A stretch of 12,423 bases of DNA from Clostridiaceae bacterium AF10-41 (GTDB taxonomy: Bacteria; Bacillota; Clostridia; Clostridiales; Clostridiaceae), in assembly GCA_027686065.1 (NCBI GenBank), contig JAQCTH010000090.1:1-12423 (forward strand), given 5' to 3'. Made by a program: the position numbers and the translations under genes. The notes beneath the pieces were generated by a model. The model searched no databases and was not told where the DNA came from. It saw only the letters and a list, made by a program, of their open reading frames with translations. Of the stretch, positions 5,010-12,423 are shown piece by piece; within the stretch, counting starts at the first letter, position 1; the number at the start of each line of letters is the position of its first letter.

Positions 5010-6041
5010 TCATAAATAGTACTTTTCCTTTTTAGAACTTTTGAATTTTTTAAATAGAATATGACTTATAAATGATATTATTATAATAATTATTACTCTT
5101 AATAAAAATAACCTTTTTTCAAATAACGAATTACGAAAATAGAAATCATTAATTAAGTTACTTAAATATGGAGCTGTTATTATTCCTATGAAGGTTTGTA
5201 GCATGAACTCAGCAATCTTCTTAGGGAAATTAAGAATTATTCCTTCATTCATATGTTCTACTAGCATATTATTCGTTAATCTTTTAGCTATAAATATTAA
5301 AATTACTCCTGTTATTACGAAAAATGCTGATATAGTAATTATTTCTAATTTACTTATACTACTTCCTATATGAACTCCATTCAAATATTCTATTATCCTA
5401 TTATATACATATCTTATTCCTTTATTTTCATAATTAATATAGCTATAAAGCCCTGATTCTAAATTTAGTATTAAAGCAATAAAATATATAAATATAAATA
5501 TTCCTGAACCTATTAAATAATATGTATTTGCGAATATTGAATCTAACAACGCTAATCCACCTATTGTAATAGTTGATATACTAATTATTCTAATTACATC
5601 CATAAAAATATTTTCTTTAAAATCCCCAATATATCTAATAATTTCAGCATTTTTTATTGCTCCCTGTCCTATGATAATTAAATAACCTATTAAATAAAGT
5701 ATTGCACAAATTATTATTAATATAAGTTCTCTTTTCCTTATATCCAGCCTTGAAAATGGCCCAGATAATAAGGTTGACCACTTTTTTCTTTTAAACATTC
5801 CTACTATTATTATATAACTAATTATTAAATATAATATCAATATAACTACACACTCAAAAGAGTAAATAAGATTATTATTATATCCATTATAAAGATTTCC
5901 TTTTAATCTCCAATTAAAATAATCATCAATAATAATTTTAGTAATTAAAAACACACCTACATATGCTAGTGCTAAAGGAAGTATTATTTTTGCATCTCCT
6001 TGATAAAATAAACTTTTATTCAAATATTTCTTCATAATCAC
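5010..6041 (-). CDS. ABC-2-like transporter permease of the ytr-type operon
   Basis: The 343-residue integral membrane protein has roughly eight hydrophobic spans (about 19-38, 61-82, 105-125, 147-170, 175-193, 233-253, 281-300, 312-331) and a basic C-terminus (KKFKSSKKEK). Between spans 2 and 3 the cytoplasmic stretch LLSGPFSRLDIRKRELI (91-107) resembles the PFSR element common in ABC-2-type permeases such as YtrC/YtrD and BcrB relatives. It overlaps the upstream ATPase gene by 26 bases, so the two are translationally coupled and very likely form one exporter or envelope-acting complex. The start is GTG at 6039-6041, five bases after AGGAGG; an ATG two codons later (6033-6035) is the alternative. 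The substrate is unknown; relatives respond to cell-wall-active antibiotics. The operon is reduced compared with B. subtilis ytrGABCDEF, with only one permease visible. Confidence 0.75.
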   Translation of the reverse strand: MIMKKYLNKSLFYQGDAKIILPLALAYVGVFLITKIIIDDYFNWRLKGNLYNGYNNNLIYSFECVVILILYLIISYIIIVGMFKRKKWSTLLSGPFSRLDIRKRELILIIICAILYLIGYLIIIGQGAIKNAEIIRYIGDFKENIFMDVIRIISISTITIGGLALLDSIFANTYYLIGSGIFIFIYFIALILNLESGLYSYINYENKGIRYVYNRIIEYLNGVHIGSSISKLEIITISAFFVITGVILIFIAKRLTNNMLVEHMNEGIILNFPKKIAEFMLQTFIGIITAPYLSNLINDFYFRNSLFEKRLFLLRVIIIIIISFISHILFKKFKSSKKEKYYL

Positions 6042-6913: not shown

Positions 6914-7297
6914 TTATATTCCTCCTCTTATTTCCTTAAATCCTTCACTTAACAATAAAATCAAATCATTTTCTTCAATTCCTAAGTAATTAGCTTCTAA
7001 TATTAATCTTTTTATATCTACGATTAGTTTATTCTTCTCATGCTCTGAAGCTTTTTTCTCATATTTATTCGATACAAATGTTCCTTTACCTCTTATTGTT
7101 TCTACAATATTATCACTTTCAAGTTCTCCGTATGCTTTACTTACAGTATTAGGATTTATAGTTAGTATAGTAGATAACTCTCTAATTGATGGTAATTTAT
7201 CTCCAGGTTTCATTATCCCTCTTAATATCAGTTCTTTTATCCCAATTATAATTTGTTCATAAATAGGTGTACTACTTCTTGAATCAATTATTAACAT
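6914..7297 (-). CDS. GntR-family transcriptional repressor, YtrA subfamily
   Basis: At 127 residues this is the small YtrA-type GntR protein: an N-terminal winged helix (PIYEQI at 11-16, PGDKLPSIREL at 31-41, recognition segment NPNTVSKAY at 48-56, wing RGKGTFV at 69-75) followed by only a short helical tail of about 45 residues that serves for dimerisation, with no ligand-binding FCD or UTRA domain. YtrA-type repressors control neighbouring ABC transporter genes and are released under cell-wall antibiotic stress. The promoter in front of this operon has an inverted repeat matching AGTGTA-N13-TACACT exactly, the form reported for B. subtilis YtrA, so this protein most likely represses its own operon. 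The start has GAGGTGA four bases upstream. It is the second gene, 21 bases after the stop of the membrane-anchored protein; usually the regulator comes first or second in such operons. Confidence 0.93.
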   Translation of the reverse strand: MLIIDSRSSTPIYEQIIIGIKELILRGIMKPGDKLPSIRELSTILTINPNTVSKAYGELESDNIVETIRGKGTFVSNKYEKKASEHEKNKLIVDIKRLILEANYLGIEENDLILLLSEGFKEIRGGI

Positions 7298-7318: not shown

Positions 7319-7945
7319 CTATTTATGTTCTACAGTATAATAATCAACTACATACCCTTCTTCTTCATCTATAACTACTAAATAAAAATCTATTTCTGTA
7401 GCTACTTGTTCGTTATATATTTCTTGTTTAGATATTTCATCATATGATTTATATATTCCATCTTTATTTACTGTTCCATCTGAATTCACAAAAACTTTAT
7501 CTACTTCATTATTATAAATAATTAAAGCGCTTAATTTATAAGTTCTAACTTCCTTTGCTCTTTGATAATTTGGTATATTATTAAAAGATTCTTCATAATT
7601 TACTCTTAAGTTTCCTAGGTTCTCTATATTTACCTCTGCTATTTCATAATCTAAAAATATTGGTATTTGTTCATTAATATATTTAGTTCCATTATAATCA
7701 TTCAAATATAACCTATATCTTCTTGATATACTTTCAAGAAATTCTTTTGGTATAATATTATAATATCTATTTTTATTTTTAACTACTTCATAACTATTAG
7801 CATATCCAATAAAATTAGCTATTGCCTCTTCTGGAGTATTGTATCTTACTTGTTTCTCATATACTTTAGTTTTATCTCCAAATGATGTTATTATAATAAA
7901 TATTATGATAAGTCCGCTAACTGCTAAAAGTGTAGATTTTTTCAT
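7319..7945 (-). CDS. Membrane-anchored extracytoplasmic protein of unknown function, first gene of ytr-type operon
   Basis: I do not recognise this 208-residue protein. It starts MKKST and has one hydrophobic segment (about 6-22) with no cysteine for lipid attachment, so it is probably an uncleaved N-terminal anchor with the rest outside the cytoplasm. The exposed part is rich in tyrosine, asparagine, glutamate and lysine: an initial TPEEAIANFIGYAN segment (37-50), a helical region, then alternating hydrophobic strands ending DFYLVVIDEEEGYVVDYY. This suggests an alpha+beta fold of the kind found in small NTF2-like or DUF4829-like secreted domains, but that is a weak guess. The start has AGGGGGA six bases upstream. 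It stands between the YtrA-type operator and the repressor gene and should be induced with the ABC system, so it may help sense or protect against envelope stress. Confidence 0.75.
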   Translation of the reverse strand: MKKSTLLAVSGLIIIFIIITSFGDKTKVYEKQVRYNTPEEAIANFIGYANSYEVVKNKNRYYNIIPKEFLESISRRYRLYLNDYNGTKYINEQIPIFLDYEIAEVNIENLGNLRVNYEESFNNIPNYQRAKEVRTYKLSALIIYNNEVDKVFVNSDGTVNKDGIYKSYDEISKQEIYNEQVATEIDFYLVVIDEEEGYVVDYYTVEHK

Positions 7946-7970: not shown

Positions 7971-8014
7971 AAAAAAATACTAAGTGTATTACTCAATGTA
8001 GTACACTTAGTATT
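7971..8014 (-). terminator. Terminator of the polysaccharide operon, shared with the YtrA-type operator
   Basis: Read on the minus strand, the 13-bp stem (8014-8002 with 7988-7976) is directly followed by a run of seven T (7977-7971) and more T-rich sequence, a standard rho-independent terminator. It would stop transcripts coming from the oxidoreductase gene that ends at 8108. Transcripts from the promoter at 8012-8040 should start near 8005 and lack most of the first arm, so they would not be terminated. Confidence 0.65.
7976..8014. promoter_or_regulatory. YtrA-type operator (AGTGTA-N13-TACACT)
   Basis: AATACTAAGTGTA (7976-7988) and TACACTTAGTATT (8002-8014) are perfect 13-bp inverted arms with 13 bases between them. 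The inner six bases of each arm give exactly AGTGTA-N13-TACACT, the operator reported for the GntR repressor YtrA of B. subtilis. The right arm overlaps three bases of the -10 hexamer (8012-8017), so a bound dimer would block RNA polymerase. The YtrA-type regulator is encoded two genes downstream at 6914-7297. Confidence 0.88.
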
Positions 8015-8040
8015 ATATGGAATAATTTGTTTTTTAACAA
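8012..8040 (-). promoter_or_regulatory. Promoter of the ytr-type operon
   Basis: On the minus strand TTGTTA (8035-8040), a 17-bp spacer and a perfect TATAAT (8012-8017) form a strong sigma-A-type promoter. The expected start is near 8005, about 60 nt before the first gene's ATG. The -10 overlaps the YtrA-type operator, fitting repression by steric block. Confidence 0.8.
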
Positions 8041-8064
8041 TCATTATTTTCTTAAGATATATTC

Positions 8065-8093
8065 ATTAATCTTAAAATTTCCTTAAGATTAAT
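8065..8093. repeat. 11-bp hairpin just after the oxidoreductase gene
   Basis: ATTAATCTTAA (8065-8075) and TTAAGATTAAT (8083-8093) pair perfectly around a seven-base loop, 14 bases after the oxidoreductase stop codon. A third CTTAAGAT copy lies at 8051-8058. No T run follows on the minus strand, so it is unlikely to terminate alone; it may stabilise the 3' end of the polysaccharide mRNA. Confidence 0.45.
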
Positions 8094-8107
8094 ATTTATA
8101 TTCTTAT

Positions 8108-9190
8108 TTATTTCATATCTGAACTTGAAAAATTATTAAATGGGAAGTTAACAGGCATTCCTGTTTTTCTTGATTTATATGCCGCTAAAATTATTGATAA
8201 AGGTACTATAGCATCTTCACCACTTACATATGGTTTTCTATCTTCATTTACAGCTTCTATAACATCTCTAAATAAAGGAGTATGCCCTTTACCATACACA
8301 CTATCTATTTCAACTTGCAAATCTTTTTTAACTACTTCTTCATCTTCGCCTTCAAATCTCCAAGTCTTAAGCTCATTTACAGCAAGTCCGCCTATTACTA
8401 CTGTTCCCTCTGTACCAAATACGCTTAACGTTTCTTCTAAGTTCTTTGGATATACTACTGCACTACCTTCTACAATTCCTATAGCTCCATTTTTAAATCT
8501 AACTACTATAGCCCCAAAGTCTTCAGCCTCAATTTTATTTTTAAATGTATCACATTCTGCATAAACTCTTTCTACTTCAGCTCCAATCATCCATTGTAGT
8601 AAATCTATATTATGTATACATTGATTCATTAAAGTACCGCCATCTAAATCCCAAGTACCTCTCCATGGAGCTTGCTTATAATAATTATCATCTCTTCTCC
8701 AAAGAATCCTAGCTGTTCCATTCATTATTCTTCCTAATTTTTCTTCTTCTATCGCTTCTCTAAGCTTTTGAATTGGTTTATTAAATCTATTTTGATGTGC
8801 AACTGATAGCTTAACATTATTTTTCTTTGCAACTTCTATCATTTCGTTAGCATCATCTATAGACATAGCCATTGGTTTTTCTACTATTACATGCTTTCCT
8901 TTATTCATGCAATAAATAGCTATTTCAGCATGATATCCACTTTCTGTAGCTATAGTAACAACATCAATGTCCTCTTCTTCTATCATTACTTTATAATCTT
9001 CATATACTCCAATTTTTAAAGATGATTCATTCATCTTTTCAAGATATTCGTTCTTCTTTTCTTCTGCTAACTCTATTTTTACATCACATGTTGCAACCAA
9101 ATTTGCTAAATCTTTATTTTCAACTAACCCTTCTACATGCTTATATGAAATTCTTCCACAACCAATAATTGCAAAATTCAACTTTTTCAT
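8108..9190 (-). CDS. Gfo/Idh/MocA-family sugar (UDP-sugar) oxidoreductase
   Basis: The 360-residue NAD(P)-dependent oxidoreductase has an N-terminal Rossmann fold starting FAIIGCGRISYKH (6-18), the family's EKP motif (104-106) with the catalytic lysine, and the C-terminal sugar-binding domain with GGTLMNQCIHNIDLLQWMIG (184-203), where D196 and its neighbouring H193 are the usual catalytic site. The stretch VAHQNRFNKPIQKLREAI resembles WlbA/WbpB-type enzymes, which oxidise UDP-N-acetyl-glucosaminuronate at C3, but the partner aminotransferase and acetyltransferase genes are not in the window, so the substrate stays open. ATG 9190 has AAGGTGG upstream. It follows the phosphoglycosyl transferase by 12 bases and is the last gene of the polysaccharide operon, ending before a hairpin and a terminator. 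The inferred role is making or modifying a nucleotide sugar for the surface glycan. Confidence 0.88.
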   Translation of the reverse strand: MKKLNFAIIGCGRISYKHVEGLVENKDLANLVATCDVKIELAEEKKNEYLEKMNESSLKIGVYEDYKVMIEEEDIDVVTIATESGYHAEIAIYCMNKGKHVIVEKPMAMSIDDANEMIEVAKKNNVKLSVAHQNRFNKPIQKLREAIEEEKLGRIMNGTARILWRRDDNYYKQAPWRGTWDLDGGTLMNQCIHNIDLLQWMIGAEVERVYAECDTFKNKIEAEDFGAIVVRFKNGAIGIVEGSAVVYPKNLEETLSVFGTEGTVVIGGLAVNELKTWRFEGEDEEVVKKDLQVEIDSVYGKGHTPLFRDVIEAVNEDRKPYVSGEDAIVPLSIILAAYKSRKTGMPVNFPFNNFSSSDMK

Positions 9191-9202
9191 TTTTTTCCCA
9201 CC

Positions 9203-9808
9203 TTATAAACATTTTATTATAGTTTTTATTATTAAATAGATATCTATTAATATATTATTTTTTTCTATATACTCTAAATTCAATTCTAATTTATCTTTCA
9301 TTATTACAGTTATATAGTATTCTTCTGGATTATCCACTTTTCCTAATATATCATTTTCATCCTTATATCTCAATGAAGCTAAGTCTGTAATACCTGGTTT
9401 TACATCTAAAACCTTCCTCTGCTCTTCACTATATAATTTTACATATTTAGGCACCTCTGGTCTTGGTCCAACCAAACTCATATCTCCCATAAATACATTA
9501 AATAATTGTGGTAATTCATCAAGCTTATATTTTCTTAGAACTTTACCTACAGAGGTTATCCTCTTATCCTCTCCGATAGTTATTTGCTTTCCAAGTTTTT
9601 CAGCATTAGGTACCATAGTTCTAAATTTTAATATTTCAAAATTTTTCATATTTTTACCTACTCTGACTTGTTTGAAAAAAATTGCTCCCTCCGATGAAGC
9701 CTTTATTAATATACATATAATTATCAGTATGGGAGATAAAAATATTAGTCCTAATCCAGAAGCTAATATATCCATTAATCTTTTTAATAATTTATTTACT
9801 AATTTCAT
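9203..9808 (-). CDS. Initiating sugar-phosphate transferase (monotopic phosphoglycosyl transferase)
   Basis: The 201-residue protein belongs to the bacterial sugar transferase family (PglC/EpsL/WcaJ catalytic domain) in its small form. One N-terminal hydrophobic re-entrant helix (about 14-36) is followed by the catalytic domain: FFKQVRVGKN (44-53), EILKFRTM (58-65), the DELPQL dyad (97-102, D97/E98 acting through a covalent phosphosugar intermediate), SLVGPRPE (111-118) and VKPGIT (136-141). It moves a sugar-1-phosphate from a UDP-sugar to undecaprenyl phosphate at the inner membrane face, the first committed step of glycan repeat-unit synthesis. Length is normal for PglC-like enzymes (about 200) and no key residue is missing; the usual KPGITG reads KPGITD here. 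ATG 9808 has GAGGAGAG four bases upstream. It lies 23 bases after the Wzy-like gene and 12 before the oxidoreductase, within one operon. Confidence 0.93.
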   Translation of the reverse strand: MKLVNKLLKRLMDILASGLGLIFLSPILIIICILIKASSEGAIFFKQVRVGKNMKNFEILKFRTMVPNAEKLGKQITIGEDKRITSVGKVLRKYKLDELPQLFNVFMGDMSLVGPRPEVPKYVKLYSEEQRKVLDVKPGITDLASLRYKDENDILGKVDNPEEYYITVIMKDKLELNLEYIEKNNILIDIYLIIKTIIKCL

Positions 9809-9831
9809 AGTGCTCTCCTCTATTATGGTAT

Positions 9832-11286
9832 CTACATAAATTCGTTAATATTATCCCTATAAAATAATACAAATAATATCATAAAAGTTGGTGTAAAGCT
9901 ATATATTTGATTAATATTATAGAAATTCATTCCTGTAAGATTTCCATACAATAATATTACCCCCATAATAATTAATAATGAAAGATAATTCAATTTAATT
10001 TTCTTATCTCTTTCCTTAAAGAATTTTATTAATGATTCAATTGTTATTATTAATAATAGTATTAATGATACAATCATAAAAGGTAATCCTAATTCAGAAG
10101 ACATATTTATTAAAATGTTATGAGAATCACTGTATCCTTTGTTAGTTCCTGAATACTCATTAAAGAAATACTTGAAGTTTCCTGCTCCAACCCCTGTATA
10201 TTTATAATCATTTGTTACTAATATACCTGTTTCCCACAATACTTGCCTAGTTTTGCTCTGACTTTTTATTACTTTAGCCAAAACTCCACCTATCTGTACA
10301 TCCTCTAAGCTTTTTCTATCAATATTATCAGCTGCTATCATTTCTTGCAATTCTTTAATACTTTCATCATTAGCTACATCACTTCTACTAGCCACATTAT
10401 AAGATAAAATTCCTCCAAATACTAAGAATACTGCAACATACTTCTTCCAATTTTTTATATCGAAAATTATATAAGCAATAAATATCGCTACAAATGATAA
10501 TAATGCTCCTCTAGACATTTGCATAGAAATTATGAATGACATTGCTAATGCTAAAATAGTCCATATATTTTTCCAGCTATTTTCTTTAACCCATTTATTC
10601 AAAACTAATACATATGCTAATAAAAAGTAACTTAGGATAAAGTTTGATCCTAGAGGTCCAAACAATCTTATATTTTTATTACCTTGTATCCATGTTAAAA
10701 TGAATTGAAGTATGTCTGGAGCTGATGAAATTATGCATCCCAAAACAAAGGAAATTAAAATCTTTTCATAGAATCTTTCCCTATCTCTTAAATTAATAGC
10801 TCCTATTATATAGAAAAATATTATAAATGGTAAAAATGATAGAGTTATTATCATAAATGATAATTGTTTGTTGTATGCAAAAATTATATTAATAATTAGT
10901 AATATAATTAATATTGATTTTATTATTTTATTTTTTATTACTAATTTATCTCTATTAATATTTTTAAATACTTTATGCTTTAGCATTATAAGAAGTGTTC
11001 CAATATAAAAGATTGAATATACTATCCATTGATAATCAAGCATCTTTGCTCTATTCATTAAATATCCTGTTATTGGTATCATTGGAACTAAAAATGTAAA
11101 TATCAAAATAGAATTTTCTAATGAAATAAGCATTAAATTTACTAGTATTATACAAATTGGAATTGCTAAAATACCTATAGCAGTTGTAAACAATCCCGCT
11201 TTTCCTCCTAATACTAAGAATAGTGCTGCTTCTAATATTATACATATTATTATATTTATTAATAAAACTTTCTTATCTAATCTCAT
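9832..11286 (-). CDS. O-antigen ligase / Wzy polymerase-like membrane protein
   Basis: The 484-residue protein has about 11-12 membrane spans and the Wzy_C landmarks: MSRGALLSF in a membrane span (257-265), a large outside loop (about 297-395) with TRQVLW (346-351), GVGAGNF (365-371) and YSDSHN (385-390), then SELG (397-400) and three or four final spans. The arginines and the histidine in the loop are the residues usually essential in polymerases and ligases. It would join undecaprenyl-linked repeat units made from the phosphoglycosyl transferase pathway outside the membrane, or attach finished chains to an acceptor. ATG 11286 is preceded by AAAGGA seven bases upstream. It sits 32 bases after the deacetylase-like gene and 23 before the transferase gene, so it is in their operon. 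It is only distantly similar to the protein at 3-920. Confidence 0.88.
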   Translation of the reverse strand: MRLDKKVLLINIIICIILEAALFLVLGGKAGLFTTAIGILAIPICIILVNLMLISLENSILIFTFLVPMIPITGYLMNRAKMLDYQWIVYSIFYIGTLLIMLKHKVFKNINRDKLVIKNKIIKSILIILLIINIIFAYNKQLSFMIITLSFLPFIIFFYIIGAINLRDRERFYEKILISFVLGCIISSAPDILQFILTWIQGNKNIRLFGPLGSNFILSYFLLAYVLVLNKWVKENSWKNIWTILALAMSFIISMQMSRGALLSFVAIFIAYIIFDIKNWKKYVAVFLVFGGILSYNVASRSDVANDESIKELQEMIAADNIDRKSLEDVQIGGVLAKVIKSQSKTRQVLWETGILVTNDYKYTGVGAGNFKYFFNEYSGTNKGYSDSHNILINMSSELGLPFMIVSLILLLIITIESLIKFFKERDKKIKLNYLSLLIIMGVILLYGNLTGMNFYNINQIYSFTPTFMILFVLFYRDNINEFM

Positions 11287-11318
11287 CCTTTTATCCTTTC
11301 ATATAAGTTTTTCATTAT

Positions 11319-12423
11319 CTAATAATATTTTTCTACTAAATTAACAATATCTATACCGGATAATCCAATTGAATTTTCTAAATAGGCATATTTTAATATC
11401 TCTTCATAAACTTTTTCCCATCCACACCAATTACTATTACTATCTAAAGAAGAATTATGCCATAATAAAGCGAAAACTCCATTATATTTTTTAACTATAT
11501 CATATATTTCCTTACATTTCTCTATAGCAAGGTCTATATCCATTCCCATATAACTATCACTATTTAAAGTTGTATCCATTATTATAAGTGGAATTTCCCA
11601 ATAATCCAACTCTTGTTCTTCATTTAAATCATATATTTTAAATTGCGAACATGTCCCACACCTAAATCCTATATTTTCTGCATATCCTACTGTTGAATCA
11701 TATTTTAATCCAAGTTCTTTATGAATTCTCCATGTTTCCTTGATATTAAATCTTAAAAAATGTTGTCTAATACCATATATTTTCATATTAACTTCATTTT
11801 CTAATTTGTCTATTTCATGTTTAAGAACATTTTTATTGTTATAACTATTATAACTTCCATGAATTCCAATTTCATTTCTATACTCTTTTAATTCATTGAA
11901 TATTCTTTTTAATTTTTTATTTTTTATAGAATAATTATTATCCTTTGTAGTTTCTCCACCACTCATAAAATAATAACTAGCCCTAAATCCATATTTTTTT
12001 TCTAATTCCAGAAAATATTCAAATTTCCAATATGGATCATTCTTAGAGTTCCTTATATATTTAAAATTTCCTTCAATTAATGAAAGTGATTTTTTTATGT
12101 TCTTTTCCCTTATTATATATGATGCTAATTTTCTATAAAACTTATCGTTATATTTAGATATAGAATCTATATCATGACTTATGAAAATTTTGCCTTTTTC
12201 AAAAAATTTATCTAATATATTAATCTTAGGGTTTAGTTTCAAAATTAACTTTTTTAAGAAAATAGAATACTCATTCACTATAGGTCTATCAAGCAAAGAT
12301 TCTTTAAATAATATTGAATCTTCAATAGAAAATCTATTATGATTTTCTAAGTTATTTCCTATCACATATTCTTCATATCTACTTAACAAAAAAAATGTAT
12401 CTGATACTATATCAAAATTTACT
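11319..12423 (-). CDS. Polysaccharide deacetylase-like protein, 5'-truncated by window edge
   Basis: The frame stays open past the TTG at 12389 to the window edge (11 further codons, VNFDIVSDTFF), and FFLLSRYEEY is an internal motif of this family, so the real start lies beyond 12423. Visible are 367 residues. Numbered from the leucine at 12389: FISHDIDS (69-76) with the metal and base aspartates, EIGIHGSY (173-180) with a metal histidine, IRQHFLRF (207-214), DSTVGYAENIGFRCGTC (231-247) and LLWHNSS (308-314). This order is typical of the NodB-fold group with an extra N-terminal domain found in surface-glycan loci. Members are thought to remove N-acetyl groups from glycan or lipid-linked sugars using a divalent metal; activity here is inferred. 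The second histidine of the classic HxxxH motif is not seen. A run of eight A (12388-12395) lies in the coding region. Confidence 0.85.
   Translation of the reverse strand, partial: VNFDIVSDTFFLLSRYEEYVIGNNLENHNRFSIEDSILFKESLLDRPIVNEYSIFLKKLILKLNPKINILDKFFEKGKIFISHDIDSISKYNDKFYRKLASYIIREKNIKKSLSLIEGNFKYIRNSKNDPYWKFEYFLELEKKYGFRASYYFMSGGETTKDNNYSIKNKKLKRIFNELKEYRNEIGIHGSYNSYNNKNVLKHEIDKLENEVNMKIYGIRQHFLRFNIKETWRIHKELGLKYDSTVGYAENIGFRCGTCSQFKIYDLNEEQELDYWEIPLIIMDTTLNSDSYMGMDIDLAIEKCKEIYDIVKKYNGVFALLWHNSSLDSNSNWCGWEKVYEEILKYAYLENSIGLSGIDIVNLVEKYY

Follow-up and report, generated by a model that had tools for sequence, protein, structure and literature searches.

The 12,423-nucleotide (nt) contig JAQCTH010000090.1 of Clostridiaceae bacterium AF10-41 (assembly GCA_027686065.1), referred to here as the window, carries a four-gene unit on its minus strand (7945 to 5010) that encodes a 208-amino-acid (aa) protein, a GntR-family regulator, an ATP-binding cassette (ABC) ATPase and a membrane protein. 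The unit is preceded by a palindrome which, judged by its sequence and its conservation, is very probably an operator of the YtrA subfamily, bound by the operon's own 127-residue GntR protein as a repressor of all four genes. Operator and autoregulation both appear well supported on comparative grounds. The evidence consists of the repeat, its overlap with a predicted promoter, its conservation in the same place, its co-occurrence with the GntR gene and its absence at 13 paralogous genes.

The palindrome has perfect 13-base-pair (bp) arms (AATACTAAGTGTA at 7976-7988 and TACACTTAGTATT at 8002-8014), which reach 17 bp each, with 5 nt between them, if one mismatch is allowed. Contained within it is the core AGTGTA-N13-TACACT without a mismatch, which the window has nowhere else in perfect form and which arose in none of 200 dinucleotide shuffles. 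With as many as 3 mismatches allowed, core matches come close to background (12 sites against a shuffle mean of 6.8, with at least 12 in 8/200 shuffles). PMC8060467 gives this operator form for Bacillus subtilis YtrA. On the minus strand a promoter match, TTGTTA-N17-TATAAT, runs from 8040 to 8012 and agrees at 10/12 positions; its -10 hexamer shares 3 bp with the palindrome.

In size and N-terminal domain the regulator also fits the subfamily. Its PF00392 match (61 bits, cut-off 27) corresponds to the N-terminal winged helix-turn-helix and stops at residue 75, and the 52 residues left agree with the short C-terminal part (~50 aa) of YtrA-type proteins. The nearest solved chain, 4ham (Lmo2241 protein), is itself small and is matched over nearly the full length. 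Moreover, the gene after GntR contains an ABC_tran domain, as expected of the operons that the subfamily regulates, and the operator is of the expected kind: a long palindrome whose GT and AC lie well away from the centre and which as a rule occurs as a single site before the operon. Long YtrA motifs of this layout have been described before ABC operons (PMC4494728).

The closest named genome found was that of Clostridium sartagoforme, whose GntR is 93% identical. We screened 68 genomes from the genus of C. sartagoforme for the regulator (E ≤1e-20) and for the extended site AGTGTACTA-N7-TAGTACACT (≤2 mismatches), which is the widely kept part of the repeat. Each was found in 30/68 genomes: 28 contained both, two the GntR gene only and two the site only. 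The extended site was thus present in 28/30 genomes with GntR as opposed to 2/38 without it (Fisher p 1.7e-14, kinship uncorrected). With the pattern reversed as a control, 9 sites were found in 7/68 genomes. A total of 39 extended sites was found, of which 28 are at the GntR unit, one is at a GntR-less unit of the same type, six are at another operon and four are at neither. One of the 28 has been displaced by a transposase gene (G012, locus L198); here the operator lies ~1.8 kb upstream of the operon, with the transposase gene (DDE domain) in between. These results agree with an earlier note made from the letters of the window, which had claimed an exact 13-bp repeat containing the core, an overlapping TTGTTA-N17-TATAAT promoter, a YtrA-subfamily repressor in the same operon, the B. 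subtilis form of the operator and conservation of this repressor-operator code.

A closer inspection of 31 sites showed an exact TATAAT in 24, at an offset of -9 (18 sites) or -10 (6 sites). Only the window's closest kin retain all of the outer 7 bp of its arms (5/31 sites). The outermost pair is not A/T in 9 sites, and in four of these both arms are altered in complementary fashion. The operon is largely kept as well: a 293-305-aa open reading frame (ORF) lies next to GntR in 31/32 loci, and ABC motifs, scored by pattern rather than profile, are present in 31/32. The first gene was detected in 28/32 loci. It is absent from C. tetanomorphum (L008), where the operator lies 38 nt before GntR, and was missed by the overlap rule in L135, L146 and L155, where the operator is 558-573 nt before GntR. 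In L131 the permease frame is split in two. Six genomes contain 13 paralogous small GntR genes whose upstream regions (154 nt only for one gene) give best matches with 6-7 mismatches of 18, which is background.

Several observations weigh against an operator of this kind. Four of the 39 extended sites (in G003, G014, G027 and G057, each with 2 mismatches) fit neither operon type, G028 carries the site only at 3 mismatches, as a symmetric variant, and G041 has GntR but no site, its operon containing a 115-aa ATPase fragment. G043 (L201) has an operon of this type without GntR, preceded by a symmetric variant site, AGTGTACCA-N7-TGGTACACT. In 5/9 sites with a changed outermost pair, one arm only is altered. 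Taken together, promoter-like matches are no more frequent in the AT-rich window than expected (2 found, 2.7 expected), so the predicted promoter rests mainly on conservation. Finally, the core at ≤1 mismatch was no commoner than the reversed control in six genomes (core/control 6/5, 4/6, 5/8, 5/4, 4/2 and 8/8).

The variant site of G043 is an orphan operator. A further perfect palindrome, with 18-bp arms of different sequence, was seen in G028 (L209), where a second small GntR gene begins ~27 nt beyond it; a paralogous regulator may use it as its operator.

The spread of the half-sites was surveyed in 106 GntR upstream regions, comprising the window, 31 clostridial loci and 74 wider loci, with ≤4 of 18 mismatches counted as a match. 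Half-sites were found before 92/106 GntR relatives from several phyla (reversed control, 3), with a centre of 7 bases in 60 regions and 6 bases in 32; the displaced operator of G012 was scored as 'none' here and on the tree. An ABC ATPase-like gene follows within 4 kb downstream in 89/106 (motif patterns, not profiles). The three states need 9 changes on the GntR tree against a shuffled mean of 40, on a tree of few columns with several long branches and with near-copies inflating the contrast. Three 7-base rows sit within a mainly 6-base clade. Centre length appears largely to follow the regulator tree. The site lies 19-55 nt before GntR in 24/31 wider loci that have one, and in eight loci the operator overlaps a TTGACA -35-like element (L013, L014, L018, L023, L026, L027, L029, L036). 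These eight belong to Anaerovoracaceae/Family XIII-type bacteria and their kin, with the same code and another promoter placement. Since half-sites precede 92/106 relatives in several phyla, the operator does not reveal the inducer; on this comparison it marks the kind of regulator instead.

A genome scan for further cores had been proposed in the earlier note. Cores at ≤1 mismatch match the reversed-control frequency in the six genomes given above, and a larger regulon in close relatives was rejected on this ground. The C. sartagoforme genome contains a single perfect core, located at this operon, and a second perfect core in G004 (C2:854432), which does not have the extended CTA/TAG letters, was treated as chance. 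In six genomes (G009, G018, G024, G026, G035, G037), all with GntR, the extended site is also found before a gene for a ~790-aa protein. In the two loci L219 (G024) and L220 (G009), genes for an ABC ATPase, a membrane protein and a protein of 515-533 aa come next, and then three more. In G024 these last three match MoxR-type AAA, DUF58 and BatA, and the membrane protein matches ABC-2 permeases; the G009 genes were assigned by gene order and likeness of the first residues. This ABC/MoxR-type operon is a probable second target of the repressor in these six relatives. Among 22 genomes with the start of the 790-aa gene in view (four fragment matches left out), 16 lack the site, with best matches at 6-8 mismatches of 18, among them the GntR-bearing G001-G005. 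For 3/16 only 118-446 nt of upstream sequence was covered, but nowhere do those genomes have a second site at 2 mismatches. The MoxR-type operon was therefore rejected as a target in the close kin of the window.

From sequence comparison we infer three steps: binding, repression and relief by an inducer. A GntR dimer on the palindrome would cover the -10 element and the start site, a position which fits autorepression, and the bound unit would be kept low, the GntR gene included. An inducer would free the operator, and the unit would then be expressed, giving a one-ATPase, one-permease ABC exporter with a membrane-anchored accessory protein. By analogy with YtrA and PmtR, an amphipathic compound or one that acts on the envelope is the likeliest inducer. 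Beyond the single unit, we regard it as an even call whether a single lineage of repressors controls a membrane regulon of two operons in Clostridium, with the YtrA-subfamily code AGTGTACTA used in two dialects of 25 and 24 bp. If so, the exporter unit, with its new membrane-anchored accessory protein, and, in some species, the ABC/MoxR/DUF58/BatA machine would answer the same signal, and the geometry of the dimer in each clade would decide between the 25-bp and the 24-bp form.

Three other explanations were weighed. The earlier note had seen in the four genes an autoregulated envelope-stress unit and a reduced ytr-like operon, in which GntR would sense inhibition of the cell wall and the operon would answer antibiotics that bind lipid II. 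Autoregulation is supported by the comparison of genomes, and the position of the site over the -10 and start region fits it. An envelope-stress role is possible but doubtful. The operator form shared with YtrA (PMC8060467), the likeness of the gene set to an ABC exporter and the second site at a membrane-protein operon in six relatives speak for it; however, half-sites shared by GntR relatives of several phyla cannot identify an inducer. The label of a reduced ytr-like operon is not supported: ytrGABCDEF has a pair of ATPases, a pair of membrane proteins, YtrF and the 45-aa YtrG, whereas the unit here has four genes only, with one ATPase, one likely permease and a predicted anchored 208-aa first-gene protein. 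Against an envelope-stress role there is also a 2025 study of B. subtilis, which found no consistent role of the system in antibiotic survival (PMC12772383). It is somewhat less likely still, and on balance improbable, that the unit represents an exporter module of the PmtR/PmtAB type, which would handle amphipathic peptides and be derepressed by its substrate. The best NCBIfam matches are to this system (PmtA for the ATPase), yet the scores of both proteins lie far under the curated cut-offs (79.9 bits against 200 for PmtR, NF047563; 157.4 bits against 350 for PmtA, NF047565), and membership of these families was rejected. In addition, other small GntR genes in two genomes score higher on the PmtR model (123-133 bits, against 74-78).

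Instead of being a DNA operator, the palindrome could work at the RNA level, either terminating transcription of the polysaccharide-type genes upstream (intrinsic terminator) or forming a hairpin at the 5′ end of the operon mRNA, which we consider very unlikely. In favour of this, the transcript read from upstream has a folding energy of -17.1 kcal/mol and a T-run after the fold, and the upstream gene (8108-9190) is co-directional. A run of at least five T follows only 8/31 sites (the six closest loci and 2/25 others), though, and the arms are still kept at the remainder. The spacing of the site before GntR in the wider loci and the eight overlaps with TTGACA also tell against RNA, and a terminator scan found no terminator. 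A terminator or hairpin was accordingly rejected as the main role, although operator and RNA roles could coexist in the close kin of the window. A GntR operator remains our preferred reading.

Table 1. Features of the four-gene unit and its control region in the window.
Feature	Positions	Strand	Basis or remark
Palindrome, candidate GntR operator	7976..8014	.	13-bp perfect arms; conserved extended form
Operator core AGTGTA-N13-TACACT	7983..8007	.	form given for B. subtilis YtrA (PMC8060467)
Predicted -10 hexamer TATAAT	8012..8017	-	promoter match and conserved offset
Predicted -35 hexamer TTGTTA	8035..8040	-	promoter match
Seven-T run behind palindrome on transcribed strand	7971..7977	-	sequence
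208-aa protein, first gene; predicted membrane-anchored, tentative NTF2-like ectodomain	7319..7945	-	
GntR-family regulator, 127 aa, YtrA-subfamily size	6914..7297	-	PF00392 61 bits
ABC transporter ATPase, 298 aa	6016..6912	-	PF00005 87.7 bits
Membrane protein, 343 aa, likely ABC-2 type permease	5010..6041	-	GTG start

The GTG start of the 343-aa membrane protein has an ATG two codons downstream. As an ABC-2 (type V exporter) permease it would share the fold of ABCG2, NosY and PmtCD-type permeases. For the 208-aa protein, whose tentative NTF2-like ectodomain would have a cystatin-like alpha+beta fold, fold comparisons were weak, and a sequence search of both this and the membrane protein against solved structures gave no significant match. 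Another inverted repeat (8057-8101; 19 nt, 84%) lies between the upstream gene and the promoter at the operator. Upstream of the operon the minus strand (8108-12389) carries polysaccharide-type genes, encoding a Gfo/Idh/MocA oxidoreductase, a sugar transferase, an O-antigen ligase-like protein and a DUF7033 protein. At 967-1010, a perfect 21-bp inverted repeat with arms 2 nt apart is found at the end of a minus-strand ORF (1010-1894), whose product resembles a UTP-glucose uridylyltransferase; the repeat faces a plus-strand ORF ending at 920 and is possibly a bidirectional terminator.

The operon and its operator represent a known kind of switch. Two leads go beyond the initial finding: the newly seen second operon as a candidate target, and a possible spacing rule, the difference between centres of 7 and 6 bases. 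Both operator lengths were individually known before, 25 bp in B. subtilis and 24 bp in Xanthomonas citri. In the open-licence literature, no work was found that joins YtrA, Clostridium, ABC transporter and operator, and YtrA family, ABC transporter and Clostridi were likewise not found together; MoxR, DUF58, GntR and ABC transporter do occur jointly in one paper. Operator, regulator and few targets are tied together by genome comparison, and the unit is therefore directly testable. The candidate second target in six species offers a regulatory handle on a poorly understood type of operon. The data also carry a warning: a function in antibiotic response cannot be predicted from an exact YtrA-type operator alone.

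Four known systems come closest. Pmt has two ATPase-permease pairs, as opposed to the single pair and extra first gene of the window. Staphylococcus aureus PmtR resembles the present regulator in being a small YtrA-type repressor within an ABC exporter operon (pmtA-D) with an operator that overlaps the start site, and it is an example of a related switch that responds to peptides which are exported (PMC5080381). The X. citri YtrA-like regulator uses GGTG-N16-CACC, whose distant half-sites and total of 24 bp are those of the 6-base class; the class to which the window belongs has one base more in the centre (PMC6746942). Sulfolobus acidocaldarius YtrASa represses its own gene by way of a site that covers the transcription start, and has only two targets, both membrane-protein loci, but its core is of 14 bp in contrast to the 25-bp palindrome with distant half-sites seen here (PMC6746942). 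In B. subtilis, AGTGTA-N13-TACACT stands before the ABC operon of the repressor itself, and YtrA has just two target operons, ytrGABCDEF and ywoBCD (PMC8060467); the place of ywoBCD is taken here, where it is present, by the candidate ABC/MoxR-type operon. Control of its own operon and of one further membrane locus thus parallels the regulons described for B. subtilis and Sulfolobus.
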